Shown here: positions 4,554 through 41,297 of the stretch, piece after piece
Numbering within the stretch: position 1 is the stretch's first letter
How the letters are laid out: each line of letters starts with the position of its first letter
Source of the DNA: Emergencia sp. 1XD21-10
Lineage (GTDB): Bacteria > Bacillota > Clostridia > Peptostreptococcales > Anaerovoracaceae
Reading direction: 5' to 3'
DNA length: 64,000 nt
NCBI RefSeq assembly: GCF_009936045.1
Contig: NZ_QWEQ01000013.1
Location: forward strand, 62,001-126,000
Translations under genes and position numbers: made by a program
The notes under the pieces: generated by a model
The model's database searches: none
Seen by the model: only the letters and a program-made list of their open reading frames with translations
What the model was told of the DNA's origin: nothing

Positions 4554-5408
4554 TTATTTCCCTTTTGCCAGGTGGTTTGCAATCGCTGCAAATTCACTCA
4601 ATGACAGAGTCTCAGCCCGTCTCTTTTCATCAATCCCAGTGCCTGCCAGACACGTTTTTATCTCTTCCTTTGTAAAATCGCCTAATTGCGATAATGAGTT
4701 AGAAAGGGTCTTTCTTCGCTGTCCAAAGCCCGCCTTAATGCAGCGGAAAAACAACTGCTCGTCCACAAGTTCTACCGGCTTTTCCAATCTAAGGTCAAGA
4801 CGCAGCACCGCTGAATCCACCTTCGGTGCAGGAAAGAACACTTCCTTTGGTACTGTTGCCACTGTCACCACCGTGCAGTAATACTGCACCGCTGCAGATA
4901 AAGCGCCGTAAGCCTTGGTGCCTGGCCCAGCCTTGATTCTGTCTGCCACTTCCTTTTGCATCATGATGGTAATGCTGTCCGCCGCTACATGGCTTTCCAA
5001 AAGCCCCATGATAATCGGCGTGGTAATATAGTAAGGCAGATTGCCTATAATTTTCGTTTTCTTACAGCCTGAAGCTGCAATAACTGCGTTTAAATCCGCT
5101 TTCAGCACATCTTTATTGATAATCTCAATGTTGTCAAACTCCTTCAGCGTATCCCGCAAAATCGGAATTAGATTCCTGTCGATTTCAACAGCGACAACCT
5201 TCTTCGCAAGCTGCGCCGCCTCTGCAGTCAAAACACCAATTCCCGGCCCGATTTCGATGACTAAATCCTCATCAGTAATTTCCGTGGCTTCAATAATCTT
5301 GTCGATGATGTTCTTGTCAGTCAAGAAATTCTGACCAAGACTTTTTGACAGCTTAAAACCGTATTTATCCTTAATTTCTCGAATGGTCGAGGGTGCATAT
5401 AATTTCAT
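4554..5408 (-). CDS. rsmA: 16S rRNA adenine dimethyltransferase
   Basis: RsmA (KsgA) dimethylates A1518 and A1519 of 16S rRNA, a late small-subunit maturation step. The 284-residue protein has the N-terminal SKSLGQNFL motif, the SAM-binding VIEIGPGIGVLT loop, the acidic VVAVEID strand and the catalytic NLPYYITTPI motif. It overlaps rnmV by 4 bases; this rnmV-rsmA order is conserved in Bacillota and couples 5S and 16S rRNA processing. Confidence 0.97.
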   Translation of the reverse strand: MKLYAPSTIREIKDKYGFKLSKSLGQNFLTDKNIIDKIIEATEITDEDLVIEIGPGIGVLTAEAAQLAKKVVAVEIDRNLIPILRDTLKEFDNIEIINKDVLKADLNAVIAASGCKKTKIIGNLPYYITTPIIMGLLESHVAADSITIMMQKEVADRIKAGPGTKAYGALSAAVQYYCTVVTVATVPKEVFFPAPKVDSAVLRLDLRLEKPVELVDEQLFFRCIKAGFGQRRKTLSNSLSQLGDFTKEEIKTCLAGTGIDEKRRAETLSLSEFAAIANHLAKGK

Positions 5409-21879: not shown

Positions 21880-22584
21880 CTACTTCTTTTTCTTTTTGTT
21901 ATTTTTTTTATTTTCTTTCAGAGCCTTTCTAAGCATGTTAAAACGCAAATTAAAGAAAATCTGAATAAACTGACTCATAAACCAGTAAATTGCAAGCCCA
22001 GAAGGATAAGATCTTGCTAACCATACAATCATAATCGGGAAGAAGTACTTCATCATGTTAGTCATGAAGTTACCTCCAGCCATCTGATTAGGATTGGTCT
22101 GCTGATTCATCCAGAAAGAGAAGAAAGTAGCAATACCAGCCGCTATTGGCAAAATCCACAAATCAGGCTGACTTAGATCTTTAATCCACAAAAATGGTTC
22201 ATGTATTGCAAAATACATACTTTCATCCGAAATAAAAATCATAGGGTTTCTGAGCAGTGCAAAGAGTCCCATAATGATAATCATCTGCACAATCATAGGC
22301 AGACAACCGCTCATAGGGTTAAAACCTTCCTCTTTGTAAAGCTCTGCCATCTTTTCATTCAGAACTTCTTTTTGATTTGCATATCTCCTCTGAAGCTCCT
22401 GAATCTTTGGCTGCATTTCAGCCATACCCGCAGTCGAAAAAATCTGTTTCTTATACACTGGATAAAGGGCAATTTTCACGATTAAGGTAACAATAATCAA
22501 ACAAATGCCGTAATTTCCAATGATATTATACAGCTGCGTCAGAAGCCATCCCAAAGGAGTAGCTAATATGTTAAAGATAAACAT
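21880..22584 (-). CDS. yidC: Membrane protein insertase YidC/SpoIIIJ
   Basis: A 234-residue integral membrane insertase of the Oxa1/YidC family. It begins with a short amphipathic segment and lacks the lipoprotein signal peptide found in Bacillus SpoIIIJ. The core is intact: YGICLIIVTLIVKIALYP, KIQELQRRYANQKEVLNEKMAELYKEEGFNPMSGCLPMIVQM, and three further helices, with a lysine-rich C-terminal tail that can contact ribosomes. It sits between yidD and khpB. Confidence 0.95.
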   Translation of the reverse strand: MFIFNILATPLGWLLTQLYNIIGNYGICLIIVTLIVKIALYPVYKKQIFSTAGMAEMQPKIQELQRRYANQKEVLNEKMAELYKEEGFNPMSGCLPMIVQMIIIMGLFALLRNPMIFISDESMYFAIHEPFLWIKDLSQPDLWILPIAAGIATFFSFWMNQQTNPNQMAGGNFMTNMMKYFFPIMIVWLARSYPSGLAIYWFMSQFIQIFFNLRFNMLRKALKENKKNNKKKKK

Positions 22585-22597
22585 TAAATTTCCTCCG

Positions 22598-22828
22598 TTA
22601 TTTTAAAGGGTCATAGCCGCCGGGATTTCCCGGATGACACTTTAAAATTCGTTTTATTCCTAAGTAACTACCTTTGATTGCCCCGTATTTTTGCAGAGCC
22701 TGTATAAAATAGGTGGAGCAAGTAGGATAAAACCTACAGGTAGGCGGAAACAAGGGCGAAATACATTTCTGATATACCCGAATCAGGAAAATCATGATTC
22801 CTTTAAAAAATCTGCTGATATATTTCAT
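22598..22828 (-). CDS. yidD: Membrane protein insertion efficiency factor YidD
   Basis: YidD helps YidC-dependent membrane insertion. The 76-residue protein shows the whole family signature: [31 protein letters not shown], followed by [26 protein letters not shown]. The ATG at 22828 overlaps the rnpA stop as ATGA; a longer frame would run into rnpA without a ribosome site. Confidence 0.96.
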
Positions 22829-23166
22829 GCTTTTTTCGTTACCCCGGTTCTTTTCAGTGCTGATTCTAAAGACTTCTTCACATCTTGGCACTTAGCGTTG
22901 ACAATAGTATTTCTAGCAATAAAAATCAAATCATAGCCTTCCGGAATTCTAAAATCTGTCAGTCTAAAACTTTCTTTCATTAAACGTCTGGCTCTATTTC
23001 TTTTGACACTATTGCCAACTTTCTTGCTAGCTAAAAAAGCTTTTCTGGTGTAGGGAAGGTTATTTTTTCTGTAAAAAACGACCACATATCTGTCCCCTAC
23101 AGATTTACCTCTATTATAAATAGACGTAAAGTCACTTTTTCTTCTTAAAACATTTTTTTTAAGCAT
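22825..23166 (-). CDS. rnpA: Ribonuclease P protein component
   Basis: RnpA is the protein cofactor of RNase P, which removes 5' leaders from tRNA precursors. The 113-residue product has [17 protein letters not shown] and the basic RNR-type signature [19 protein letters not shown]. It follows rpmH by 7 bases and precedes yidD with a 4-base overlap. Confidence 0.97.
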
Positions 23167-23173
23167 TTCAAAA

Positions 23174-23308
23174 TTAAGCAGTTAATTTTTTTCTGCCTTT
23201 TGCTCTTCTTCTCTTAAGAACGTTTCTGCCATTCTTGGTGCTCATTCTTTTTCTGAAGCCGTGCTCTTTCATTCTCTGTCTTTTTTTAGGCTGATAAGTC
23301 TGTTTCAT
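23174..23308 (-). CDS. rpmH: 50S ribosomal protein L34
   Basis: A 44-codon gene reading [18 protein letters not shown], then [20 protein letters not shown], then RKKLTA, which is the complete conserved L34 sequence. An AGGAGG-type site precedes the ATG. It is the first gene of the leftward origin-proximal operon and is divergent from dnaA, the usual arrangement at a bacterial oriC. Confidence 0.98.
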
Positions 23309-23379
23309 TGGTTTTACCTCCTTATAAATTGTAAACTCATACGCAATCTAAATTCCAATATGCGCACATATGCCCTACT

Positions 23380-23408
23380 ATTATACTTACAAAGGCTTGG
23401 CTTGTCAA
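23380..23408 (-). promoter_or_regulatory. Sigma-A promoter of the rpmH operon
   Basis: On the minus strand TTGACA (23408-23403) and TATAAT (23385-23380) are separated by exactly 17 bases, a full consensus match, 72 bases before the rpmH start. Confidence 0.85.
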
Positions 23409-23423
23409 TGATTTTGTCTTTTT

Positions 23424-23452
23424 TTGTTCTTAAATTGCCATGCTGCTATATA
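23424..23452 (+). promoter_or_regulatory. Putative dnaA promoter
   Basis: TTGTTC (23424-23429) and TATATA (23447-23452) are spaced by 17 bases and face dnaA. DnaA boxes lie just downstream, which would allow autorepression. Confidence 0.55.
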
Positions 23453-23473
23453 AAAACAGGTATGTGCGTAAAA

Positions 23474-23548
23474 TTATCCACAAGATATGGATAACTATAT
23501 GGAAATTTTATTTTTCAACCTTTTAAATTTGTACTTGTATATGGATAA
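23474..23548. promoter_or_regulatory. DnaA-box cluster upstream of dnaA
   Basis: A consensus box TTATCCACA lies at 23474-23482 on the plus strand. TTATCCATA variants, one mismatch from consensus, are on the minus strand at 23486-23494 and 23540-23548. This is the position of the first half of the bipartite origin in Bacillota. Confidence 0.8.
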
Positions 23549-23593
23549 CTTATTAGGTACAATAAAACTACACCATGAAATTGAGGGCAGAAA

Positions 23594-24931
23594 ATGAAAA
23601 GTATATGGAATCAAGTTTTAAATATCATTGAAGAAAATACAACATCAATCAGCTATAATACCTGGTTTAAACCACTTAAAATCAACAACATTGACAAAAA
23701 TGTAAAAATCGTCTATTTAGAAACCGATGAAGATTTCATTATCAAAGTTTTAAAAGACCGTTATTTACAGCTGATTGAGTCCAGTTTCAAAACTGTAACC
23801 GGAGAAGAATACCGCGTTGTAATCAAAAATAGCAGCGACTATGAATCCAGTAAGGAGGAGGCTCCGCAGCAGCCAGTTTTAATGGATCCAAAGCTGCGCA
23901 AGCAGAAAATTTTTAATCCAAGATACACCTTTGATAATTTTGTTGTAGGCGGCAGCAATAAGTATGCCCATGCAGCAGCCCTTGCCGTTGCCGAATCTCC
24001 ATCGGAAGCATATAACCCGCTGTTCATCTATGGCGGTTCCGGACTTGGAAAAACGCATCTGATGAATGCTATTGGTATTTATCTTCTGGAAAACAACGAG
24101 AATCTCAACGTTCTCTACGTATCTTCCGAGATGTTTACCAATGAGTTTATCAAGGCGCTGGGAGAAAACAAAACCAGAGAATTTAAAAACAAATACAGAA
24201 AAGTCGATGTTCTTCTCATCGATGATATTCAGTTCCTGGAGGGAAAAGATACCATGCAGGAAGAATTCTTCCATACCTTTAATTCTCTGTATGATCTAAA
24301 TAAGCAGATTGTCATTTCCAGTGACCGGGCGCCGAATAAACTGGACAAACTGGAAGAACGACTGAGATCCAGATTTATGTGGAACCTGATTGCTGATTTA
24401 CAGCCGGCTGACTATGAAACCAGAGTTGCAATTTTAATGAAAAAAGCAGAAAATGCCAACATTGAAATGGACGACGAATTATACGAAGTCATTTGTCTCA
24501 TCGCTGAAAAAATCAAAGATAACATCAGAGAACTGGAAGGTGCCTTTAATAGAATCGTTAGTTTTTCCACCCTTATGGAAGAAAAAATCGATAAAACCTT
24601 TGCAAAAAGAATTCTCAAGGACATCATTCAAAACAACGGAACCAGTCCTACTCCTGAGAAAATCAAAACAATTGTCAGCAGATACTTTAAAATCAAGGTT
24701 TCTGATATGGAGAGCTCTAAGAGAACCAGCAATATTGCATTTCCAAGACAGATTGCCATGTATCTCTGTAGAGAATTAACCGATTATTCCCTTCCTAAGA
24801 TTGGAAATCTCTTTGGCGGCAGACACTACACTACAGTTATGCATGCCTGTGACAAAATTCAGGATGAAATAAAAAGCAATGAATCAGTCAAAGAAATTAT
24901 AGAAAACCTAAAAAAGGATATTTCTGAATAA
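23594..24931 (+). CDS. dnaA: Chromosomal replication initiator protein DnaA
   Basis: DnaA binds oriC boxes and melts the origin. The 445-residue protein has domain I (WNQVLNIIEENTTSISYNTWFKPL), a short linker, the AAA+ domain III with Walker A GGSGLGKTHLMNAIG and Walker B VDVLLIDDIQFL, and the domain IV helix-turn-helix with the signature GGRHYTTVMHACDKI. GAGGG lies just before the ATG. Confidence 0.98.
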   Translation: MKSIWNQVLNIIEENTTSISYNTWFKPLKINNIDKNVKIVYLETDEDFIIKVLKDRYLQLIESSFKTVTGEEYRVVIKNSSDYESSKEEAPQQPVLMDPKLRKQKIFNPRYTFDNFVVGGSNKYAHAAALAVAESPSEAYNPLFIYGGSGLGKTHLMNAIGIYLLENNENLNVLYVSSEMFTNEFIKALGENKTREFKNKYRKVDVLLIDDIQFLEGKDTMQEEFFHTFNSLYDLNKQIVISSDRAPNKLDKLEERLRSRFMWNLIADLQPADYETRVAILMKKAENANIEMDDELYEVICLIAEKIKDNIRELEGAFNRIVSFSTLMEEKIDKTFAKRILKDIIQNNGTSPTPEKIKTIVSRYFKIKVSDMESSKRTSNIAFPRQIAMYLCRELTDYSLPKIGNLFGGRHYTTVMHACDKIQDEIKSNESVKEIIENLKKDISE

Positions 24932-24941
24932 CTTTTACAGC

Positions 24942-25043
24942 TTATCCACAAATTTTTAACTTTAAATTTTTAAGATATTGCAAGGGGCAGAAAAGTTATC
25001 CACAGAATCCACAGCCCCTACTACTATTACTACTAAATTAATA
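24942..25043. other. oriC unwinding region: DnaA boxes, GC-rich block and DnaA-trios
   Basis: Between dnaA and dnaN are two perfect DnaA boxes, TTATCCACA at 24942-24950 and 24996-25004, followed by an AATCCACAG near-box and a GCCCC block. Then come five consecutive 3-base units CTA-CTA-TTA-CTA-CTA (25018-25032), which are 3'-GAT/AAT-5' DnaA-trios on the other strand, and an AT-rich tract. This is the order of the Bacillus basal origin unwinding system. Confidence 0.9.
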
Positions 25044-25076
25044 TAAGAAAAAGATGGCATTTCGGAGGTTTTAAGT

Positions 25077-26192
25077 ATGAAATTCACATGCAACCAATCA
25101 GTTCTCACCAAAGCATTAAATATCGTGTCCAAAGCGGTCACATCGAGAACCACTATTCCAATTTTAAAAGGTATCCTTTTAGAAGTATCTGATAACGGCA
25201 CATTAAAAATGTCAGCCTCAGATTTAGATATTACGATAGAAGAAACAATTGAAGTTGAAAACACCGAAAGCGGTTCCATTGTAGTACAGTCAAAACTTTT
25301 TGGCGATATTATCAGAAAGCTTCCTAATGCCGATGTCAGTGTGGAACAGGAAGAAGGAAATGTAATCATCAAATGCATGAATTCTCAGTTCAGTATCATA
25401 GGTCTTTCTCCTGATGAATTTCCAAATATAAAAGATATAGAAGAAAATCAAGACAATATCGTATTCAATAAAACAATTTTAAAAGAGATGATTAGAAAAA
25501 CATCTTTTGCTGCCAGCATTGATGAATCAAAAGGTGTTATTACAGGTATTCTTATTGAGCTTTTAGCAGATGGTATAAACATGGTTGCAATCGATGGCTA
25601 CAGAATGGCAATCACCAGAGAAGCTATGATTAATAAAGAAGAAAAGAACGTCATTATTTCTGCAAAAATTATGAACGAAATCAGTAAGATTTTAAGTGAT
25701 GCATCAGAAGAAGATGAAAATGTAAAACTTTTCATGAGTGATAAAAAAGCTATCTTTATGATTGGCAGCGTAAAGGTTGTCCTCAGACTTCTTGACGGTG
25801 AGTTCATCAAATACAAGGATGTGCTTCCAAAAGACAATAAAATAAAAGTGAAAGTCAACAAAGGAGATTTGATGGAAAGTATAGAAAGAGCTTCCTTGCT
25901 TTCTAAAGAAGGAAAGAACAATCTCATTAAAATGTCCATCAAAGATACCATCGTTACCATCACTTCTAAGTCTGAAGAGGGAAATGTAAAAGAAGAAGTT
26001 ATCATTTCTAAAGAAGGAGAAGATTTGGATATCGGATTCAATGCAAAATATGTCCTCGACGTGATGAAATCTATCGATGATGAAGAAGTATATATGTACT
26101 TCAACACACCAATTACCCCTTGCCTTGTAGAGCCAATTGAAGGGGAAGCATTTGAATACTTGATTCTTCCTGTTAGAATCACCAACAATTAA
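25077..26192 (+). CDS. dnaN: DNA polymerase III beta subunit (sliding clamp)
   Basis: The 371-residue protein is the processivity clamp, built of three similar domains. It starts MKFTCNQSVLTKALNIVSKAV with TIPILKGILLEV, contains DGYRMAITRE in the middle domain and ends with FNAKYVLDVMKSIDDEEVYMYFNTPITPCLVEP and the C-terminal LILPVRI strand. A GGAGG site precedes the ATG. Confidence 0.98.
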   Translation: MKFTCNQSVLTKALNIVSKAVTSRTTIPILKGILLEVSDNGTLKMSASDLDITIEETIEVENTESGSIVVQSKLFGDIIRKLPNADVSVEQEEGNVIIKCMNSQFSIIGLSPDEFPNIKDIEENQDNIVFNKTILKEMIRKTSFAASIDESKGVITGILIELLADGINMVAIDGYRMAITREAMINKEEKNVIISAKIMNEISKILSDASEEDENVKLFMSDKKAIFMIGSVKVVLRLLDGEFIKYKDVLPKDNKIKVKVNKGDLMESIERASLLSKEGKNNLIKMSIKDTIVTITSKSEEGNVKEEVIISKEGEDLDIGFNAKYVLDVMKSIDDEEVYMYFNTPITPCLVEPIEGEAFEYLILPVRITNN

Positions 26193-29446: not shown

Positions 29447-31954
29447 ATGAATACATTATTAGAAGATACAAAATTAGAACAGCATGAGATATCTAAAGAA
29501 ATGAAAAAATCCTACATCGACTACTCCATGAGTGTTATTGTAGGACGTGCCCTTCCTGATGTCAGAGACGGACTGAAGCCGGTTCACAGAAGAATTCTTT
29601 ACGGTATGAGCCAGCTGGGCGTTACACCGGATAAACCGCATAAAAAATCCGCCCGTATTGTCGGTGAAGTAATGGGTAAATATCACCCACACGGCGATAG
29701 CTCTATTTACGATGCTATGGTAAGACTGGCACAAGATTTTTCTACCAGATATATGTTGGTAGATGGTCACGGAAACTTCGGTTCCGTCGATGGTGACGGC
29801 GCCGCTGCAATGCGTTATACAGAAGCAAGAATGACGCCGTTTTCTCTGCAGATGATCAGGGATATTGAAAAAGAAACGGTAAACTTTGTAGATAATTTTG
29901 ACGGTGAAGAAAAAGAACCAGTAGTGCTGCCAAGTAGATTTCCTAACCTTTTAGTAAATGGTTCCAACGGTATCGCCGTAGGTATGGCAACTTCCATTCC
30001 GCCGCATAATCTCAGTGAAGTCATCGATGCTACAGTAGAGTTGATTGATAACGAAGAAGCAACTGTAGAAGATTTGATGAAATATGTCAAAGGACCAGAT
30101 TTTCCAACGGGTGCGACTATCCTTGGAAAGAACGGCGTAAGAGAAGCCTACAAAACCGGTATCGGTAAGGTAAAGGTTCGTTCCTGTTGCGAAATTGAAG
30201 AAACTGATAGAGGGCGTTCACAAATTATTGTAACGGAAATTCCTTATCAGGTAAACAAAGCTAGACTCATCGAAAAGATGGCAGAACTTGTAAAGGATAA
30301 GAGAATCGAAGGCATTTCTGCAATCCGAGATGAATCCAATCGTAACGGTATGCGTATCGTCATCGAACTGAAGAGAGATGCAAATCCTCAGATTACGCTG
30401 AACAGATTATATAAGCATACACAGCTGCAGGAAAGCTACAGCATGATTATGATTGCTTTGGTAGACGGTCGTCCAAAGGTTCTTAATCTCTATGACATTA
30501 TTTCAGAGTACTTGAAATTCCAGAAGGAAGTTGTAACCAGAAGAACTCAATTTGACCTGAAAAAAGCCGAAGCCAGAGCCCACATCTTAGAAGGTCTGCG
30601 TATCGCTCTTGATAATATTGATGAAATTATTAAAATCATCAGAAGCGCATATAATGACGCAAGAGAAAAGTTGATGGAACGTTTCGGACTTTCAGAAATT
30701 CAGGCTCAGGCAATTTTGGATATGAGACTTGCCAGACTGCAAGGACTGGAAAGAGAAAAAATCGACAAAGAGTATGCTGAGCTGATGGAAAGAATCGCTT
30801 ACTTTAATTCGCTGCTTGCTGATGAAAAACTGCTCATGGGTGTTGTAAAAGATGAACTTCTGGAAATCAAAGAAAAATACGGTGATGACAGAAGAACCAA
30901 GATGGTTGCAGATGTAGATGAATTTGACGATGAAGACTTAGTTGCAGAAGAAAAAGTAGCGATTACTTTGACGCATCTTGGATATATCAAGAGAGTTCCG
31001 GCTGACACCTATAAAGCACAGAGACGTGGCGGTAAGGGCATTACAGGCATTACGACCAGAGAAAACGACTTTGTAAAAGACCTGATTATGACCTCTACTC
31101 ACGACTATCTCATGTTCTTTACCAATACAGGAAAAGCGCATAAGATTAAAGCATTTGAAATTCCAGAAGCGACAAGAACAGCTAAGGGTACGCCGGCTGT
31201 CAACTTCCTGAATCTGATGCAGAGAGAAAGAATTACAGCAATTATTCCGGTACAGGAATTTGCAGATGATAAATTCCTCATTGCTGTAACTAAGAACGGT
31301 ACGATTAAGAAGACACCGCTTTCTCAGTTTGATACGCAGAGAAAGACTGGTCTTATTGCTATCAACTTAAAGGATGACGACCAGTTAATCGGTATCAAAG
31401 AAACTACTGGAAGCAACAATGTAATCATAGTAACCAAAAATGGTAAATGTATCTGCTTCTCTGAAGAAGATGTAAGAAGCATGGGTAGAATTGCCGGTGG
31501 TGTTCGTGCAATTAAGCTTGAAAAAGATGATGAAGTTGTAGCAATGGAACTTGTTGAACCGGGTCAGGAGCTGCTGGTAGTAACAGAAAATGGTTACGGT
31601 AAAAGAACTCCTGTAGAAGACTATAAGATTCAGGTGCGCGGCGGTAAAGGTCTTTTGACTTATGATAAATCCAAGTTCAAAAAGACCGGTGCTCTTATCG
31701 GTGCAATGGTTGTCGATGAAGATGACGAAGCTCTGATGATTAATTCAGATGGAATCATCATCAGAATCAGAGCTGGAGAAGTATCCAAACTGGGCAGAGC
31801 AACCCAGGGTGTAAAGATTATGAAGGTCGAAGACGAAGTAAAAATTGTCGCTATGGCAAAAGTAATCAAAGAAGATGAGGAAGAGGAAGTAAAAGAAAAA
31901 CCTGCAAAGGAAGAAGCACCGAAAGAAGACGGTGACGAACAGCTTACTCTGTAA
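29447..31954 (+). CDS. gyrA: DNA gyrase subunit A
   Basis: GyrA is the DNA-cutting and wrapping subunit. The 835-residue protein has the quinolone-region helix with [19 protein letters not shown], the catalytic tyrosine in [11 protein letters not shown], and a C-terminal beta-pinwheel with the GyrA box QRRGGKG, which marks it as gyrase rather than topoisomerase IV. The last ~30 residues are strongly acidic ([10 protein letters not shown]...). It follows gyrB by 17 bases with an AAGGAGGG site. Confidence 0.98.
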
Positions 31955-33468: not shown

Positions 33469-33497
33469 AAAGAGCCGCATAAATTTGCGGCTCTTTA
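33469..33497. terminator. Bidirectional terminator
   Basis: AAAGAGCCGC (33469-33478) pairs perfectly with GCGGCTCTTT (33487-33496) around an 8-base loop, between the convergent sigma-factor and racemase-like genes. Confidence 0.85.
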
Positions 33498-33508: not shown

Positions 33509-34237
33509 TTACAGCCTTAAAATTTTAGCTGAAGCAATCTGTGGACTGATAGAAACGGAATTGTCATATCCCAGCATAACCATAGTTTCCAGGAATTTTA
33601 TAGCATTTGCCATGGGTTCGATAACGGTTATATTTATGTGCTCCTCTTTCAGCCTTGCATTGAGGGTATTTGCAATATAAAACATTCCAGTACATCCCAG
33701 GCAAACTGCCTTGATGCCGTAATCGTCAGACATTTTTTTGCAGATAGAAAGCAGTCTGTCTATCAGGAAATTCGCCTGTTCACGAATATCGTTTACTTCT
33801 AAATCAACAGGGATAATAGAGGCGATATGGTCCAGCATACCTATTTGCTTTGCCTTTCGTTCTTCGTGAATAATTCCCGCTGTGTCGGTGGTAATAATAC
33901 CAATTTTATCTGCGAGAATCAGCGCAGAATGTATTGCCGCCTGATATGGACCGATAACGGGAGTAATGGCAAGTTCTCTGCAAGCAGATACGCCCGGATC
34001 ATCAAAGCAATTCACATATATGCCATCGTAGGATTTACTCAGCGTTTTTACCAGATTTACAGTTTGCCAGCCGTTGTAAATATCCTGTAAATCCGATTCA
34101 ATAGAAGTGTATCCTTGCGGAATTTGTGCAAATTCGATGACTGTATCTGGATGAAGATAGGGCTGAAGATATGAAAGAATATCAGTTTTTTTGTTCTCAT
34201 ATTCCGCAGTCACAGGGATTAAAAATAAAAGTTTCAT
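33509..34237 (-). CDS. Asp/Glu/hydantoin racemase family protein
   Basis: The 242-residue protein fits the two-domain cofactor-free racemase superfamily. Two cysteines sit in the expected places: one in YVNCFDDPGV and one in VCLGCTGMFY, with the intervening TPVIGPYQAAIHSALILADKIGIIT segment typical of hydantoin-racemase/AroM-type members. The start at 34237 has GAGAGG upstream; an ATG-less extension is possible. It follows DUF917 by 11 bases, the association expected for hydantoin-type metabolism. The substrate is not known. Confidence 0.82.
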   Translation of the reverse strand: MKLLFLIPVTAEYENKKTDILSYLQPYLHPDTVIEFAQIPQGYTSIESDLQDIYNGWQTVNLVKTLSKSYDGIYVNCFDDPGVSACRELAITPVIGPYQAAIHSALILADKIGIITTDTAGIIHEERKAKQIGMLDHIASIIPVDLEVNDIREQANFLIDRLLSICKKMSDDYGIKAVCLGCTGMFYIANTLNARLKEEHINITVIEPMANAIKFLETMVMLGYDNSVSISPQIASAKILRL

Positions 34238-34248
34238 CAGCGCTCCTC

Positions 34249-35337
34249 TCAATCAATATAAATTTCATCAATATATTTTTGCATTTCGATATTTAGAATG
34301 TTTTCGATTCTCTGATATACGTCTCGGTATAAAAGACCTTTTCCAAGCAGCATATGCTCTTTTGATGCGGCAACTACTGTAATATTGCAGCCATTTTCAA
34401 TTTGTGCAGTAGTCAGAATTTCTCCCGTTTGTGTATCTATCGTTGTAATCAAATCAGGGAACGTTTGCAGCCTTTCCCCATTTTTATCAACGGCCATATA
34501 TTCATTAAAAAAGTATAGCTGATATTTGTCGTTTTCGCTGCAAACTGTAAAAGAACCATGATCCAACGCGTTTTCAGTGCAGAGAGTGTGATTCTCTACC
34601 CTGCCCTGGCAAATTATATTTCCTTCTACTACGGAACATGCTGCTGCAATCTTTTCTTCCACTGTTTTTCCAGTTAAATATGCTTCGCCCAGTCTGTATG
34701 CTAAATCATATGCTCCCGTTGCACCGGAAGTTTCAAGCCATGACGGAGCGACAGGATTTCTTGCGACAGCTATAGCGCCGCCTGCCTTTGCTGCGGCGTT
34801 TCTGATCAGGTCAGAGGTAGTTTCTATGGAGCCGGTTAAAAGTACTTCAACATATGTATTGGTAGATTCTCTGCCACCAGCCCCAGCTTGCACCGTGATA
34901 TTTTTATCACCTTTCTCAAGACCCAGAGATCCCATAATCCCAAAGGGATGTGCTCTGCCGTCACAGGCAGAATTAATGACGGGAATATTTAAGCGAGCAG
35001 CTGGAATAAAGGGCTCAAAAGAAGATGAAGCACCCATTTCGCAGGGAATAAAACCTATAATTTTTTTCTTTTCCTGAGATTGAATTAGATAAAGAATTTT
35101 TTCGTAAACGTCCTCTGAATAGTAAGCGGTATCCGATGCGGGAGAGCCAACGCCGGATATGGTAAGAATGACGCCTTCCTTTTCGCTGACTTCGGAAAGG
35201 GGAATAATCTGCACTTCTCCCAATTCCAAAGCGCGCCTTGCGGTTGAAAGACCTTCACGAATATCTCCGCCACCGCCTCCGCCGAGAAAGAGACTTCCGA
35301 TTGCAATTTTCTTAACATCTTCAAGATTTACTAACAT
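34249..35337 (-). CDS. DUF917 family protein
   Basis: The 362-residue protein shows the DUF917 start, with a glycine-rich stretch (FLGGGGGGDIREGL) and VILTISGVGSPASDTAYYSEDVYEKIL. The central segment has GFIPCEMGASSSFEPFIPAARLNIPVINSACDGRAHPFGIMGSLGLEKG. Members are found with hydantoinase/oxoprolinase genes and are annotated as S-methyl-thiohydantoin desulfurase-like in some databases. The reaction here is unknown. It heads a two-gene operon with the racemase-like gene. Confidence 0.85.
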   Translation of the reverse strand: MLVNLEDVKKIAIGSLFLGGGGGGDIREGLSTARRALELGEVQIIPLSEVSEKEGVILTISGVGSPASDTAYYSEDVYEKILYLIQSQEKKKIIGFIPCEMGASSSFEPFIPAARLNIPVINSACDGRAHPFGIMGSLGLEKGDKNITVQAGAGGRESTNTYVEVLLTGSIETTSDLIRNAAAKAGGAIAVARNPVAPSWLETSGATGAYDLAYRLGEAYLTGKTVEEKIAAACSVVEGNIICQGRVENHTLCTENALDHGSFTVCSENDKYQLYFFNEYMAVDKNGERLQTFPDLITTIDTQTGEILTTAQIENGCNITVVAASKEHMLLGKGLLYRDVYQRIENILNIEMQKYIDEIYID

Positions 35338-35367
35338 ATTAGTGGTACCTCCATGTAATAATGCAAG

Positions 35368-35382
35368 TACCGGAATTACACA
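35368..35382 (+). promoter_or_regulatory. 15-bp element TACCGGAATTACACA, copy A
   Basis: This sequence occurs again, identical over all 15 bases, at 38594-38608 upstream of DUF1177. Here it lies between the divergent DUF917 and OPT genes, 64 bases upstream of the OPT -35 box. It is not a palindrome. Confidence 0.7.
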
Positions 35383-35445
35383 CTGCCAGTATACTGGGTT
35401 CAGAGGCGAAAGTCAACCTATATTTTTTGAAATTTCAAAAAGTCC

Positions 35446-35474
35446 TTGACACCAAATCGAAGCCATGATACATT
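35446..35474 (+). promoter_or_regulatory. Promoter of the OPT transporter gene
   Basis: TTGACA (35446-35451) and TACATT (35469-35474) are 17 bases apart. A minus-strand promoter for DUF917 can overlap it face to face: TTGACA at 35494-35489 and TATCAT at 35470-35465, spacing 18. Confidence 0.65.
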
Positions 35475-35481
35475 AAATTTA

Positions 35482-35496
35482 GTTAAAATGTCAATA
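35482..35496. promoter_or_regulatory. 15-bp element GTTAAAATGTCAATA, copy A
   Basis: The reverse complement (TATTGACATTTTAAC) recurs exactly at 38656-38670. Here it covers the expected transcription start of the OPT gene and the -35 of the candidate DUF917 promoter. Confidence 0.65.
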
Positions 35497-35552
35497 TTCA
35501 TAATGTTCTCGTTAGCAGTTTGATTTGTGAATCAAAACAAAAGGAGAAAGTT

Positions 35553-37259
35553 ATGAATAACACAGAAAGTAAGCAGAACAATATTCTGCTTGAGGAACAA
35601 AAAGAAATTGACAGACATAAGATTACTGCAGATCAGATGCCAAAAGTAAAAGAGCCTGCAGTTTTTGTTGTTGCTATTATTGTTGCGATTCTCGGGTGTA
35701 TTGTAGGACTTCAGGTACAGATTCATACAGGTACTACACCAGATACATCTATTGTCGGCGCTATTTTTGCTATTCTTATTGCGCAAATTCCTCTCAGATG
35801 GCTAAAACCTTTTAAAAACATTCACCGGCAGAATCTGGTACAGACGACGATTTCCGGTGCGACGTTTGCTTCTGCAAATTGTATGTTCTTAACTATGGGT
35901 ATCCCTGTTATCATGGGATGGCCGCAGTTGATGGTTCCTATGTTAATTGGTGCAACTCTTGCCACTATTGTGGATGCAACGATTTTATACAAGTCCTTTG
36001 GATCTCCAATGTTTCCGGCTGAAGGTGCGTGGCCTCCGGGAATTGCTGTAGCCGAATCTATTTATGCTATGGCTGACAAAGGAAAACGAGCGCTTTTGCT
36101 GCTTGTAGGTTCTGTTGCCGGATGGATTGGTGCAATGATTGGAATTCCAATGGATTTAGTTGGAGTAGTATGGGTTGGAAGTTTAGTAGCGATGGGTGCT
36201 TTTGGTGTAGGTGCTTTGTTGAAAGGTATTTTATCTACGAACGAATTTTCTCTCACCTTTGCAGGTCACACCGGAACTTTTGCAACAGATATTTTCGGAT
36301 CGGATTTCTCATTTGCCGACAGCGTTTCTCTTTCCTATCTTGGTCATGGCGCGATGATTGGTGCCGGAATTATTTCTTTATTGCAGTGTGCACGAATTTT
36401 ATTTAAAAAAGAAGAAAATGGAACTTCTGCCGCATCCAGATTCGGAACAAGTCTCAGTGATATGAAAAACGCTTTGAGCAAAGGCTTTATTGCATATATT
36501 GTTATTGCAATCGGTCTTGCAATTGCGACAGGTCTGTACTATGAAATGGGTATAGTGAAGCTAATCGCATGGGTCATCTTTGCTGCAGTCGCAGCGTTGG
36601 TATCTGAGCTTATCGTAGGTGTTTCCGCGATGCATTCAGGCTGGTTTCCGGGATTTGCTACTGCACTGCTATTTTTGATTATTGGTATGATGATTGGCTT
36701 CCCTACACTGCCGCTGGCAATTCTTGCAGGATTTACAGCTGCTACAGGTCCGGCTTTCTCTGATATGGGAAACGATTTAAAGGCAGGATGGATATTGCGT
36801 GGTAAAGGCGCAGATATGGAGTTAGAAAAAGTAGGAAGAAAACAGCAGTACTATGCAGAATTGCTCGGGTTTGGCGTTGCCTTTGTCATGGTAGCAATTT
36901 TTGCGAAGGGTTATTTCAATCAGGGTATGTTTGCGCCGATTAACTTTGTTTATCAGTCGACTATTGAAGCGGGATCTACCGTTGAAGTAATGAAGTGGCT
37001 TGCGATTTGGGCAATTCCAGGTGCACTGATTCAGCTTTTGGGCGGAAATCATCAGGCAGGAATTCTGTTTGCAACTGGTTTTTTGGTTGGATGGACTGAG
37101 GCCGGTGTTGTCATTCTGATTGCAATTTCAATCAGAGCGATTGTTATCCATAAAAATCCTGAAAGAGACAGCATTTTTGCAATCCTTGGCGCAGGTGCTC
37201 TTGTGGGATCCGCGCTTCGGGATTTCTCCACTTCCATGCTTGGATTATTTAAGAAATAG
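35553..37259 (+). CDS. OPT family oligopeptide transporter
   Basis: A 568-residue membrane protein with about 14-16 hydrophobic segments and OPT/YSL family marks such as GLQVQIHTGTTPDTSIVGAI near the start, FPAEGAWPPGIAVAESIYA in the middle and FPTLPLAILAGFTAATGPAFSDMGNDLKAGWILRG towards the C-terminus. OPT proteins import peptides or metal chelates by proton coupling. The ATG at 35553 has AAGGAG upstream and is preferred over the longer frame from 35520. Neighbouring peptidase and hydantoin-type genes suggest it brings in their substrate; that is inference. Confidence 0.9.
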   Translation: MNNTESKQNNILLEEQKEIDRHKITADQMPKVKEPAVFVVAIIVAILGCIVGLQVQIHTGTTPDTSIVGAIFAILIAQIPLRWLKPFKNIHRQNLVQTTISGATFASANCMFLTMGIPVIMGWPQLMVPMLIGATLATIVDATILYKSFGSPMFPAEGAWPPGIAVAESIYAMADKGKRALLLLVGSVAGWIGAMIGIPMDLVGVVWVGSLVAMGAFGVGALLKGILSTNEFSLTFAGHTGTFATDIFGSDFSFADSVSLSYLGHGAMIGAGIISLLQCARILFKKEENGTSAASRFGTSLSDMKNALSKGFIAYIVIAIGLAIATGLYYEMGIVKLIAWVIFAAVAALVSELIVGVSAMHSGWFPGFATALLFLIIGMMIGFPTLPLAILAGFTAATGPAFSDMGNDLKAGWILRGKGADMELEKVGRKQQYYAELLGFGVAFVMVAIFAKGYFNQGMFAPINFVYQSTIEAGSTVEVMKWLAIWAIPGALIQLLGGNHQAGILFATGFLVGWTEAGVVILIAISIRAIVIHKNPERDSIFAILGAGALVGSALRDFSTSMLGLFKK

Positions 37260-37273
37260 GTTGCCGCAAGGCG

Positions 37274-38437
37274 CTATGTCAACGCTTTCATTTTCATAAT
37301 TTTGTACAGAAAATACAGCGTTTGCGTAAAGTCAAGAGAGCTCCTTCCATACGGAATCAGCTCTCTAATTTTATTTAGGCGGTAGCGTACCGTATTAACA
37401 TGAATATGCAGCAGTTTTCCCGTTTTTACATGATCAAGGTCACATTCAATAAAGGCTGTCATTGTTTCAATCAAGTTGGAATGGTATTTCTTGTCATGTT
37501 CAGCAATGGGCGAATATAACTCATTAAAGTAGTCCTCAAGAAGTGGATTTGAAAGGAGTTTGACGAGCAGTTTTGATAATCCGATATCTCTGAAATACAC
37601 TGTGCCGTTGATATCGTGTGCGCCGGATAAACTTGCCATAGATGCCTGCACAATCACTTCGTCTAACTGCTTTAGTGGAAGCAGCTCGCTGATTCCTATG
37701 ACTGCATTGGGCAGCATTCTGCGAATAAACTGGATTTCATCTTCGCAGGACGAAATATTTGCCGCAGTGTGATAGGACCGGATAATCAACATCCCTTTTT
37801 TATAGTGGCATCCTAAGGCGAATTTGTTTTCTCTGATTTTATTCAGCAAGTATACTTCGTTGCTGATTGCTGTGATTTTGTTGGAGGAGAGGTCGGTATT
37901 GACGCAGTAAAAGGCTCTAATATAGGAATGAAAATTCTTATTGAGCAGAGGAATAATCTCTAGTTTTCTCTCTTCTTTACATTGGGAGGAAACTAGTTCA
38001 TGGATTAGATTTTCATGAAGTTCAGATTCATGATAGGATAGTTTAAGCTCCATGATGGAAGAAATAATCAGTGCATATGGGGTACTTGAGTCGATAAAAA
38101 TAATGGGAAGCTTGTGTGTGTTTGCTAATTCATATGCACTTTCTGGAAGCTCGTCCAAGTATTCGTCAATGATAAAAAGGGCGGAAACCTTCATGTCAAT
38201 AAAATGCCGAATCAGCACATTGATGTATTTCTCGTTGTCCACTCCGTAAGCCATTGACGTCAAATATAGATTCTGCCCGTAATTTACTGGTGTAGACTCT
38301 GAATCTGTTTCATCATAATAGTTATCCAGCACATTAACGTACGATACGATGTTAGATAGCCCGTTCTGGCCAGCTTTCAGCTCTGCATTTGCCATGATTG
38401 GCAGGTGCAGAACATCTAATACGGTAATATCCTTCAT
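37274..38437 (-). CDS. PucR family transcriptional regulator
   Basis: The 387-residue protein begins ITVLDVLHLPIMANAELKAGQNGL, the N-terminal PucR sensor domain, then a variable middle region. It ends with the PucR C-terminal helix-turn-helix AFIECDLDHVKTGKLLHIHVNTVRYRLNKIRELIP. Family members activate nitrogen, purine or peptide catabolic genes in response to substrate. Start 38437 has AAGGAAGG upstream. It is convergent with OPT, only 14 bases away, and divergent from DUF1177, so it is the likely regulator of this cluster. Confidence 0.92.
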   Translation of the reverse strand: MKDITVLDVLHLPIMANAELKAGQNGLSNIVSYVNVLDNYYDETDSESTPVNYGQNLYLTSMAYGVDNEKYINVLIRHFIDMKVSALFIIDEYLDELPESAYELANTHKLPIIFIDSSTPYALIISSIMELKLSYHESELHENLIHELVSSQCKEERKLEIIPLLNKNFHSYIRAFYCVNTDLSSNKITAISNEVYLLNKIRENKFALGCHYKKGMLIIRSYHTAANISSCEDEIQFIRRMLPNAVIGISELLPLKQLDEVIVQASMASLSGAHDINGTVYFRDIGLSKLLVKLLSNPLLEDYFNELYSPIAEHDKKYHSNLIETMTAFIECDLDHVKTGKLLHIHVNTVRYRLNKIRELIPYGRSSLDFTQTLYFLYKIMKMKALT

Positions 38438-38461
38438 ATATGCAACCTTCCTTTTCGTCTT

Positions 38462-38487
38462 GATTCTGTCATAATTATAACAGAATC
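38462..38487 (-). promoter_or_regulatory. pucR promoter with an overlapping 26-bp palindrome
   Basis: GATTCTGT (38462-38469) and ACAGAATC (38480-38487) flank an inner ATAATTAT. The whole 26 bp is symmetric except for one base pair. On the minus strand TATAAT of the pucR -10 lies inside it, with TTGCGA 16 bases upstream as the -35. The layout suggests autoregulation. Confidence 0.6.
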
Positions 38488-38509
38488 TCAAAAAATCGCA
38501 AATAGAATT

Positions 38510-38556
38510 ATATGTCCATACAATAATTAATAAAGAATTTTATATGAACATACAAT
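38510..38556. repeat. Two direct repeats ATATG-N2-C-ATACAAT, 32 bp apart
   Basis: ATATGTCCATACAAT (38510-38524) and ATATGAACATACAAT (38542-38556) repeat at three helical turns in the pucR-DUF1177 gap. They are candidate PucR binding sites. Confidence 0.55.
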
Positions 38557-38593
38557 TCTTTTCGATTTTTCTGTTTGCTAAAATGAACATTAA

Positions 38594-38670
38594 TACCGGA
38601 ATTACACAAACAGGAAGAACGCAGATCGTGTGCTGCAAATTAGAACAATACCGAGTATTGACATTTTAAC
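38594..38670. promoter_or_regulatory. Copies B of both 15-bp cluster elements
   Basis: TACCGGAATTACACA at 38594-38608 and TATTGACATTTTAAC at 38656-38670 match the elements at 35368-35382 and, inverted, at 35482-35496. They lie upstream of DUF1177. No clear sigma-A -10 follows the TTGACA in the second element. Confidence 0.7.
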
Positions 38671-38703
38671 GACTAACTAAAAACGAATTTCAGGAGGTAC
38701 ATA

Positions 38704-39642
38704 ATGGTATTCAAGCAAATGATTGAGGTATATGATATTCTCGATGATATCCATGCAAATGGTGAGAGAATGGCTAATTATTTTAGATCCATTAAATCGG
38801 ATGCAGATGTTGAAGTGAAGACAATTTACGGAGATAAAGGAAAGACCGACTTGGTAAAGGTTACGATTCCGGGAACGAATGGACGGATAAAAGGGGGCGA
38901 CGCCCCTACCCTCGGCTTAATAGGCCGTCTGGGGGGACTAGGTGCTAGACCTGAGAGAATCGGTTTTGTATCTGATGGAGATGGTGCGCTTACGGTGTTG
39001 ACTGCAGCGGCAAAACTTCTTGATATGCAGAAAAAAGGAGATACACTGGAAGGAGATGTCATTGCGGTTACCCACATCTGCAGCGATGCGCCTACCGAAC
39101 CCCATGAACCTGTAGACTTTATGGATTCTCCTATCAGCATGAAGCAGTGCAATGATGAAGAGGTTTGTGAAGAAATGGAAGCAATTTTGACTGTCGATAC
39201 CACAAAGGGAAACAGAGTCATCAATACAATGGGTTTTGCGATTTCTCCAACGGTAAAGGAGGGATATATTCTGCGAACCAGTGAAGATCTGTTGGATTTA
39301 ATGGAAATGACGACGGGTCGTCTGCCAAAGGTTTTCCCTGTTACGACACAGGATATCACCCCTTATGGAAATGACCTGTATCATTTGAACAGTGTACTGC
39401 AGCCTGCTGTTTCCACAAACGCTCCTGTTGTTGGAGTTGCAATTACAACGGAAGTTCCTGTTCCGGGATGCGGAACCGGCGCAACTCACGCAGCAGACGT
39501 AGAGATGACTATAAGATTTGTCTTAGAAGCCGCCAAGGCCTATGGAAGAAAACAGTGCAGTTTTTATGACGAAGCCGAATTTAATCATTTAGTAGAACTC
39601 TACGGCTCCATGACGCAGCTGCAGACAATGGGAATGAAGTAA
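38704..39642 (+). CDS. DUF1177 family protein
   Basis: The 312-residue protein matches DUF1177: FKQMIEVYDILDDIHANGE, VKVTIPGTNG, IGRLGGLGARPERIGFVSDGDGALTVLTAAAKLLDM, VIAVTHICSDAPTEPHEPVDFMDSPI and the C-terminal VGVAITTEVPVPGCGTGATHAADVEMTIRFVLEAAKAYG. Function is unknown; the glycine-rich, His/Asp-containing segments look like an enzyme and may recall peptidase-like folds, but I see no defined catalytic set. AGGAGG precedes the ATG. It heads the operon with AroM and the aminopeptidase. Confidence 0.85.
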   Translation: MVFKQMIEVYDILDDIHANGERMANYFRSIKSDADVEVKTIYGDKGKTDLVKVTIPGTNGRIKGGDAPTLGLIGRLGGLGARPERIGFVSDGDGALTVLTAAAKLLDMQKKGDTLEGDVIAVTHICSDAPTEPHEPVDFMDSPISMKQCNDEEVCEEMEAILTVDTTKGNRVINTMGFAISPTVKEGYILRTSEDLLDLMEMTTGRLPKVFPVTTQDITPYGNDLYHLNSVLQPAVSTNAPVVGVAITTEVPVPGCGTGATHAADVEMTIRFVLEAAKAYGRKQCSFYDEAEFNHLVELYGSMTQLQTMGMK

Positions 39643-39643
39643 G

Positions 39644-40315
39644 ATGAAGAAAATTGGTTTTATCACGATCGGTCAGTCCCCTAGAGATGATATCATGAAA
39701 GACATTCTTCCAATAATCGGAGATGATATAGAAATTTTACAGAAAGGGGCTTTGGACAACCTTTCAGAGGAAGAATTGGAGGAAATCGCACCGCTGTCTG
39801 GCGACACAGTTCTTGTTTCATCCCTTAGAGATGGGCGGTCTGTTTCCATGGCGGAAGAAAAAATTATCGTGCATCTTCAGCGGTGTATCGATGAATTGGA
39901 AGTTTGCGGTGTGAGTGGGATTATGTTCCTATGTACGGGAGATTTCAAAGATCTTCTCACTGCACATGTTCCTCTGATATATCCAAACCGTCTTTTGAGG
40001 GCGATTATCCCCGCCATATGTGATAGAAAAAGGCTTGTAGTTCTCGTTCCCGAAGAGGAACAGAAATCTGAGGCTATGGCGCAATGGGAAGGTATCGGCA
40101 TGGAGACCAGCGTTTTTTCTATCTCGCCGTATACTGCTGCCGAAGAGAATTTCGCGGCGCTGGCTCTTACGTTAAAAGACATTGACTGCGACTGCATTCT
40201 GATGGACTGCATGGGATACTCCGCAGAGATGAAGTATATCCTTTGTAGCCGCAGCGGTAAAAATGTATTGCTTCCGCGTACTTTTTCTGCCGCTGTGCTG
40301 AAAGAACTGATTTAA
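39644..40315 (+). CDS. AroM family protein
   Basis: The 223-residue protein begins KKIGFITIGQSPRDDIM, the AroM signature, and has SGIMFLCTGDF and the C-terminal CILMDCMGYSAEMK with cysteines where racemase-fold enzymes carry catalytic ones. E. coli AroM has no established function. It starts one base after the DUF1177 stop and ends 9 bases before the aminopeptidase gene, so the three are one operon. Confidence 0.87.
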   Translation: MKKIGFITIGQSPRDDIMKDILPIIGDDIEILQKGALDNLSEEELEEIAPLSGDTVLVSSLRDGRSVSMAEEKIIVHLQRCIDELEVCGVSGIMFLCTGDFKDLLTAHVPLIYPNRLLRAIIPAICDRKRLVVLVPEEEQKSEAMAQWEGIGMETSVFSISPYTAAEENFAALALTLKDIDCDCILMDCMGYSAEMKYILCSRSGKNVLLPRTFSAAVLKELI

Positions 40316-40324
40316 GGAGCAAAT

Positions 40325-41269
40325 ATGAAATCACTTATAGAAATATCAAAGGACATTTTAACAGGTTGCATGGATTTAAAAAAGGAAGAGACGCTGCTTG
40401 TTATCACCGATACGTTAAAATTCGAAATCGGAAAAGCCCTATATCAGGCGGGTCTTGAACTCGGGTGCGAATCTCTTCTCATGTCCATGGAAGCTCGCTC
40501 TGTTTCCGGAGAGGAACCTCCTGAGGCTGTAGCAAATGCAATGCTGGGTGCAGATGTTATCATCTGTCCCACAGAAGAGTCTCTAACCCATACGAGTGCA
40601 AAAGTAGAGGCCGTCAAAAAAGGCGCCCGTGTAGGTACTATGCCGGGTATTACAGAGGAAATGTTTACACAGGGTGCAATTACCGCTGATTTTAAAGAAG
40701 TTGAAAAACGTACGTTGGAATTGACGCAAATGCTCACCGAGGCGAACGAAGCTGTAATTGAAAAGGATGGTTTGGTGATGAGGCTAAATCTGCAGAATAG
40801 AGATGGCGTCCCAAGTACTGGCGTATATAGACATCGTGGAAGTAGCGGAAACCTGCCCTCAGGAGAAGCGTATATTGCACCGAAGGAAGACGGGTGTGAT
40901 GGTGAAACTCTGATTGACGGTTCAATGGTAGGCGTTGGAACGCTTGTCGAGCCCCTTCACGTTACAGTGAAGGACGGTCAGCTTCAGAAAATCACAGGCA
41001 CAGGTTCTGAAAAACTGGAAATCTTATTTACTAAACCGGAGAACGGCATTGTGGCTGAGCTTGGCATCGGCACAAATGAAAAAGCGCTGCTCTGTGGAAA
41101 TACACTGGAAGATGAAAAAGTCTATGGAACGGTACATATCGCCTTTGGAACCAATACCTCTTTTGGCGGAAAAAATAAGGCAGACTGCCATATGGATGGC
41201 ATCATCTTGAAGCCTACGCTGTATTTGGATGGCAAAAAAATCATTGCAGACGGAGAGTTTGTCTATTAA
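40325..41269 (+). CDS. M29-type (thermophilic metalloprotease-like) aminopeptidase
   Basis: The 314-residue protein ends in the M29 metal-binding pattern: LPSGEAYIAPKEDGCDGE, VAELGIGTNEKALLCGNTLEDEKVYGTVHIAFGTNTSFGG and KADCHMDGIILKPTLYL, with Glu, His, His and Asp ligands in the expected order. Related proteins include leucyl aminopeptidases and ring-opening dioxygenases of the same fold, so hydrolysis of a peptide is likely but not certain. It is the last gene of the DUF1177-AroM operon and precedes a strong terminator. Confidence 0.82.
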   Translation: MKSLIEISKDILTGCMDLKKEETLLVITDTLKFEIGKALYQAGLELGCESLLMSMEARSVSGEEPPEAVANAMLGADVIICPTEESLTHTSAKVEAVKKGARVGTMPGITEEMFTQGAITADFKEVEKRTLELTQMLTEANEAVIEKDGLVMRLNLQNRDGVPSTGVYRHRGSSGNLPSGEAYIAPKEDGCDGETLIDGSMVGVGTLVEPLHVTVKDGQLQKITGTGSEKLEILFTKPENGIVAELGIGTNEKALLCGNTLEDEKVYGTVHIAFGTNTSFGGKNKADCHMDGIILKPTLYLDGKKIIADGEFVY

Positions 41270-41297
41270 ACTTTCAGCTGAGAAATCTGTTCAAAGG

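Follow-up and report, generated by a model that had tools for sequence, protein, structure and literature searches.

Gene content and shared regulatory elements

The 64,000-nucleotide stretch of Emergencia sp. 1XD21-10 analysed here (contig NZ_QWEQ01000013.1, positions 62,001 to 126,000; hereafter the window, with positions counted from its first base) carries a compact cluster of seven genes at 33509-41269, encoding a hydantoin/allantoin-racemase-like protein, a DUF917 protein, an OPT-family transporter, a PucR-type regulator, DUF1177, AroM and an M29-family metallopeptidase-like protein (Table 1). The original prediction, made from the sequence alone, had placed these seven open reading frames (ORFs) here, and its coordinates hold and its family names all agree with Pfam, in which S-Me-THD_N/C is the current name for DUF917. 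As read from the ORFs, those of the racemase, OPT and PucR begin with TTG and contain a likely internal ATG start. The host assembly (genome G000 below) comprises 3.39 Mb in 116 contigs and is rated 98.66% complete.

Sequence elements common to both regulatory gaps had also been predicted, and were confirmed as two exact 15-base words, with the copies of element A on the same strand and those of element B on opposite strands. Among 2000 dinucleotide-shuffled gap pairs, the longest common word reached 15 bases in 1 pair and 14 in two pairs. Over the whole window, the 14-base core of element A has three matches when up to 2 mismatches are allowed (both gap copies included), where 0.32 would be expected. 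Element B has two, where 0.35 would be expected, and 5 of 100 shuffles gave at least as many. Both words recur in three relatives, L028, L029 and L030 (Emergencia timonensis), between which the gap sequence outside the elements drifts in alignment. The core of element A is found in both gaps of all three with no more than 1 mismatch, while element B is unchanged at both sites in L028 and L029 but in L030 differs at 2 bases in gap 2 and at 4 in gap 1; a further L030 match at 4885 sits within the DUF917 gene and was not counted as an element. Element B is oriented to DUF917 in gap 1 and likewise to DUF1177 in gap 2, and the reverse strand of its first copy gives TTGACA-18-TATCAT directed at DUF917, the top score among 21 promoter-like sites, a total no higher than chance (17.8 expected). 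From the shared elements A and B we infer that both operons are under common control. Two extra ORFs of 149 and 152 amino acids (aa) lie between OPT and PucR in L030.

Table 1. Features of the seven-gene cluster and its borders (window positions)
Feature	Position	Strand	Evidence or remark
Racemase, hydantoin/allantoin-racemase-like (PF01177, Asp_Glu_race)	33509..34252	-	Pfam 2.3e-28
DUF917 / S-Me-THD-like protein, candidate ring-acting enzyme	34249..35337	-	Pfam S-Me-THD_N/C
Regulatory gap 1, between DUF917 and OPT starts	35338..35552	.	alignment with three relatives
Shared element A, TACCGGAATTACACA, copy 1	35368..35382	+	exact 15-base word
Shared element B, GTTAAAATGTCAATA, copy 1	35482..35496	+	exact 15-base word
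OPT-family transporter	35520..37259	+	Pfam PF03169 2.9e-16; likely ATG start 35553
PucR-type regulator	37274..38491	-	Pfam PucR 1.8e-17, HTH_30 3e-12; likely ATG start 38437
Regulatory gap 2, between PucR and DUF1177 starts	38439..38703	.	alignment with three relatives
Shared element A, TACCGGAATTACACA, copy 2	38594..38608	+	exact 15-base word
Shared element B, GTTAAAATGTCAATA, copy 2	38656..38670	-	exact 15-base word
DUF1177	38704..39642	+	Pfam 8.4e-133
AroM	39644..40315	+	Pfam 4.7e-69
M29-family metallopeptidase-like protein, NicX-like in sequence, 314 aa	40325..41269	+	Pfam Peptidase_M29
Stem-loop, 11 pairs, terminator-like, left cluster border	33469..33496	.	computed

Co-occurrence, mobility and association with cyclodipeptide oxidases

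At least 553 relatives of the window DUF1177 were confirmed in public genomes, of which the best-scoring 80 loci were compared, a set that over-represents nearby lineages, includes some short contigs and has four loci in which the ORF caller gave no DUF1177 frame. Near DUF1177 we found AroM in 56 loci, M29 in 42, PucR in 40, an M20 peptidase in 35, OPT and DUF917 in 32 each, the racemase in 29 and both Dpp-type permeases in 25. The co-occurrence search suggested in the original prediction came out positive, with DUF1177, AroM, DUF917 and OPT recurring together across loci. Among 391 separately sampled genomes of the class, 13 contain DUF1177 and 11 contain a confident AroM, the latter count leaving out G109 (score below cut-off) and G019, whose AroM match proved to be the racemase gene of that locus. 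Nine genomes hold both families against 0.37 expected (p 7e-14, uncorrected for relatedness); in seven of them the two genes share a contig and are no more than 1 kb apart, in some cases with another gene between them, and in the other two they are on different contigs. This co-occurrence already refutes a chance neighbourhood of unrelated genes, an explanation whose probability is practically nil in view also of gene orders conserved among loci and of DNA similarity that stops at the cluster borders.

Copies of DUF1177 from Emergencia sp. and Eubacterium sp. share 92% identity with the window protein, and that of Emergencia timonensis 88%. Similarity to L028 and L029 in blastn starts at 33552/33553 and stops at 41270/41271, and at E 1e-10 nothing else in the 64 kb window matches these loci; the flanks available for this border comparison measured 4.8 kb and 8.4 kb in L028, and 4.9 kb and just 0.3 kb in L029. 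G097, the only further genome of the genus that the class sample includes, lacks DUF1177. Seven plasmid records carry the family. A conjugative plasmid of Klebsiella pneumoniae from cattle faeces has the order IclR-OPT-DUF1177-AroM-PepE-racemase (L117:6559-11966) with transposase genes on both sides, and a plasmid of the archaeon Salinigranum rubrum combines Dpp genes, DUF917, DUF1177, AroM, an aminopeptidase and a racemase. Profiles find PucR, racemase, OPT, DUF917, DUF1177, AroM and M29 in an unannotated Niallia plasmid stretch, and further variants of the cluster lie on Sodalis, Paenibacillus and Planococcus plasmids. We regard it as almost certain that the seven-gene cluster is a single functional and mobile unit.

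Importers in the 80 loci are OPT only (30 loci), Dpp-type ATP-binding cassette only (23), both (2) or neither (25); any OPT or Dpp-type genes, partial sets included, are found in 57 loci, and OPT or both Dpp permeases in 55. The peptidase PepE (family S51) occurs in L091 and on the Klebsiella and Sodalis plasmids. The importers alternate between two peptide-uptake types and the peptidases vary (M29, M20, PepE), which fits a pathway with a peptide-bond hydrolysis step. The substrate is probably peptide-like. The frequent peptidases (M29, M20, PepE) and peptide importers would also suit a pathway that takes up and degrades linear peptides containing D- or beta-linked residues, in which the racemases fix configuration and no ring is involved, as would the aspartoacylase-like gene of the archaeal cluster and the absence of DUF917 from all 23 Dpp-only loci. 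Such a pathway is nevertheless quite unlikely, as it leaves unexplained both the DUF917 genes in 25 of the 30 loci with OPT and without Dpp (which also hold AroM in 28, M29 in 25 and the racemase in 25) and the cyclodipeptide-oxidase genes of five loci described below. OPT/YSL relatives import metal chelates, and OPT/YSL and Dpp-like importers could take up an opine or nicotianamine-type metallophore that the enzymes then degrade, releasing the metal. The plasmid stretches are annotated with regulators of IclR, MurR/RpiR, HTH and Lrp types, whose names make no reference to metals, and the oxidase link points elsewhere, making chelate import very improbable.

Genes for hydantoin racemases, DUF917 and AroM are enriched around cyclodipeptide oxidases (CDOs), with OPT, peptide importers and peptidases also there, Blautia among the carriers and fused oxidases described (PMC11055893, 2024; statements on this paper refer to the portions accessible to us). 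The oxidases studied so far act on cyclic dipeptides, and the function is left open in that paper. The companions of CDO-containing clusters without cyclodipeptide synthase (CDPS) genes, namely PF01177, DUF917, AroM and OPT, are all encoded in the window, but the oxidase family PF19585 (CDO subunit B), present in those clusters, has no match in the window's genome. PMC11055893 was not among the literature matches for DUF1177, which among open-licence PMC papers, in the text accessible, amount to a single mention in one paper on another protein family. The original prediction that the pathway would be new holds only in part, since the racemase, DUF917, AroM and OPT genes around CDOs were already known. 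This analysis adds that DUF1177 belongs to the core and what fold it is predicted to have, that the cluster also exists in an oxidase-free form, that its regulatory gaps share sequence elements, and that it is found on plasmids and in an archaeon.

We searched 78 DUF1177 genomes for PF19585, leaving out L089 and L100, and found it in five (5 of 28 and 0 of 50, the 50-genome run giving no match anywhere). All five matches lie inside the DUF1177 locus, 3 to 4 kb downstream of DUF1177, and adjoin or are fused with a nitroreductase-like gene. Genes are arranged as DUF917-DUF1177-AroM-M29-racemase-nitroreductase-like-PF19585 in L042 and L044, and as DUF1177-M29-Mem_trans-nitroreductase-like followed by PF19585 in L039 and L045. 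At L031:13276-14148 the nitroreductase-like and PF19585 parts share one reading frame, apparently a fused oxidase like those of PMC11055893. In the class sample PF19585 is present in 5 of 391 genomes with PucR beside it in every case; four of these loci (L128-L131) have the oxidase pair, PucR, Dpp genes and a long M29-like gene, one of them reaching DUF917 inside the stretch that was fetched, and the fifth has PucR, racemase and DUF917. Three AroM stretches lacking DUF1177 (L133-L135) all contain DUF917, and two of them the racemase. The DUF1177, AroM, DUF917, racemase, importer and oxidase families reassort around one theme in which the oxidase is optional.

Predicted folds and conserved residues

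DUF1177 has no PDB sequence match up to E 1. Its AlphaFold2 (AF2) model (pLDDT 87, pTM 0.90, 48 sequences; residues 255-259 poor) resembles metallo-aminopeptidases (Foldseek 4.7e-9, TM 0.53), including LapB 5gne (VIA-align Z 17.8, root-mean-square deviation (rmsd) 3.3, 232 aligned), predicting an M28/M42/M20-like metallo-aminopeptidase fold with changed active-site residues. The transferrin receptor, which we take to be a non-enzyme of this fold, also ranks high against the model, so that the fold alone shows no activity of DUF1177. Residues D91, D93, H134, D165 and H227 are invariant in the 48 sequences, with C126 in 47 and H124 in 46; in a wider set of 14 sequences, D91, D93, C126 and H227 are found in 14, D165 and H124 in 13, H134 in 12 and R75 in 11. 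By chain order D91 and D165 would fit two M28 metal ligands, with the Glu pair not evident. Placed likewise by chain order and not by superposition, R75 (48/48) occupies the likely first-His position, and the likely Glu position is variable (D128, 33/48). Compared with M28, M42, M20 and M17 metallopeptidases, the predicted fold is alike but the expected His and Glu ligands are not evident. Profile comparison gave no usable residue-level alignment of DUF1177 to M29 or to the M42 and M20 proteins tried.

The M29 protein has profile matches both to M29 aminopeptidases (PepS, AmpS, AmpT) and to the dioxygenase NicX, all of which are longer than its 314 aa; in the PDB it matches NicX 7cn3, the best single-sequence match, and PepS 4icq. 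E181, E245, H271, H289 and D291 are found in 8 of 8 sequences and occupy all five positions of what we take to be the M29 metal-binding residues E, E, H, H and D, with H271 placed by an HIAFG motif; four of the positions were aligned to PepS, the last two in a weak stretch only. A dioxygenase reading was dropped because, in the profile alignment, the M29 ligand positions are retained whereas E245 stands opposite a His of NicX, indicating that a NicX-type iron site is not kept.

The racemase matches allantoin racemase 3qvj (5.6e-20) and OpaE 9qbx (3.9e-4) in the PDB, and has Cys82 and Cys187 in 23 of 23 aligned sequences, the pair of catalytic cysteines that characterises hydantoin/allantoin racemases (KpAllR, 3qvj) and is common also to NozR and OpaE. 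Position 14 is Val in all 23, in a column equated by motif only with position 12 of KpAllR (Asn12), where allantoin/hydantoin racemases carry Asn/Asp (PMC12661438, in the portions accessible). The same source links OpaE, which acts on an oxepinamide, and NozR, which takes part in cyclo-D-Trp-D-Trp production, to the allantoin-hydantoin racemase subfamily; with these two, racemase-family enzymes for diketopiperazine-type scaffolds are documented, a precedent for epimerising rings of this kind.

AroM was sequenced in E. coli by 1986 and was without experimental characterisation as of 2024, according to the reference list and accessible text, respectively, of PMC11055893. Its AF2 model (pLDDT 95) aligns to hydantoin racemase 2eq5 (Z 16.4, rmsd 3.1, 194 aligned) and to 2dgd (Z 16.5), with Z 16.5 to 14.5, rmsd 2.7-3.9 and 183-196 residues aligned among the 50 matches listed. 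The predicted Asp/Glu/hydantoin-racemase fold agrees with a remark on AroM in PMC11055893, and Cys97 and Cys189, present in 37 of 37 sequences, are at most supportive of racemase activity. An extra in-cluster protein of ~280-300 aa, none of which was seen in the window cluster, is encoded at L019:8777-9631, L022:9051-9947, L047:10931-11764 and L064:12607-13440, with no Pfam match for the L019 copy and no NCBIfam match for the L019 and L047 copies. At L021:2535-4055 it is fused in front of AroM in one frame, a hint that the two may work together.

DUF917 has a profile match to a hypothetical protein, PDB 2o3i (4.8e-16). It aligns over nearly its whole length to the NCBIfam families of S-methyl thiohydantoin and thiohydantoin desulfurases but scores 255.5 and 247.5 bits, far under the cut-offs of 440 and 450, and assignment as a thiohydantoin desulfurase was rejected. 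Among open-licence PMC papers the term "thiohydantoin desulfurase" had no match, and DUF917 function is discussed, in the text accessible, only in PMC11055893.

Candidate substrate and pathway

The best single reading is that the cluster works as a mobile unit for OPT-mediated uptake and anaerobic catabolism of a cyclic dipeptide (2,5-diketopiperazine), to which we give a probability of roughly 0.45, a related ring such as a hydantoin-capped dipeptide being an alternative form of the substrate. It is favoured because of the cyclodipeptide-oxidase genes in five related clusters together with the predicted folds. On the same grounds, the import and breakdown of a peptide- or hydantoin-like compound put forward in the original prediction is partly supported, as the reading that fits best. 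The OPT protein would import the compound, and PucR would sense it or a product and turn on both catabolic operons via the shared elements. The hydantoin-type racemase and AroM would then use their cysteine pairs to move the alpha-proton and so correct residues that are D-configured or epimerised, before DUF917 and/or DUF1177 opens the ring and the M29 protein, possibly aided by DUF1177, splits the linear dipeptide to amino acids. Hydantoinase_A has two matches elsewhere in the genome (G000:C71:45505-45921 and G000:C15:14705-15124), and such proteins could supply a ring-opening step.

Several observations weigh against a cyclic dipeptide as substrate. PF19585 has no match in 73 of the 78 DUF1177 genomes, nor in G000, for which reason the oxidase is regarded as optional and was rejected as a defining feature of the cluster. 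Of the five loci that do have it, L039 and L045 lack racemase and DUF917 and count as about one case since their PF19585 stretch is identical, and DUF1177 is in none of the five class PF19585 loci within the fetched stretches. The absence of DUF917 from all Dpp-only loci means that ring opening by DUF917 is not universal, the archaeal plasmid being a counter-case. No residue of DUF1177 clearly corresponds to the catalytic Glu of M28, and the protein may be something other than a hydrolase. Identity to the aligned non-Emergencia clusters is 18-25% for the racemase and 33-39% for DUF917, so that specificity may differ.

Moreover, no result separates diketopiperazines from hydantoins, and hydantoin-type rings, like modified linear peptides, are serious rivals to a cyclic dipeptide. 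In a hydantoin/N-carbamoyl pathway DUF917 would open a hydantoin-like ring, the racemase would be a true hydantoin racemase, and the peptidase-fold proteins would strip off the carbamoyl group or split an N-carbamoyl dipeptide. The named relatives of DUF917 are thiohydantoin desulfurases and the nearest racemase structures are allantoin/hydantoin racemases, in line with such a route; L016 has an NCS1-type permease and a CN-hydrolase gene, L017 a pair resembling these by first residues, and the Planococcus plasmid has DUF1177 with DUF917, a cytosine permease and hydantoinase A/B genes. The OPT or Dpp-type genes in 57 loci, the activity of studied CDOs on cyclic dipeptides and the racemase Val14, with its motif-matched column, speak against it, and we rate it as somewhat unlikely. 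A bolder form of the cyclic-dipeptide reading, which we consider doubtful, would make DUF1177 a new enzyme class in which a rebuilt peptidase-fold active site opens cyclic dipeptides without oxygen, with AroM as a second cysteine-pair racemase, in a plasmid-spread diketopiperazine route of bacteria and archaea.

Heated food and microbial products commonly contain cyclic dipeptides. The degradation of these compounds was called little known in 2013 (PMC3852281, in the portion accessible). A compact seven-gene cluster in a gut anaerobe with plasmid relatives makes the question testable in few constructs, and a cyclic-dipeptide pathway would, if true, give first functions to DUF1177, with its at least 553 relatives, and to AroM. 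DUF1177 may have a separate use in six loci of gut Firmicutes (L062, L063, L078, L080, L084 and L101), in which it adjoins another conserved gene, group c16, and no AroM was mapped. Elsewhere in the window, the GC skew changes sign at 22000-26000, shortly before a gyrA-like gene at 29447 (named by eye from sequence), which suggests a replication origin.

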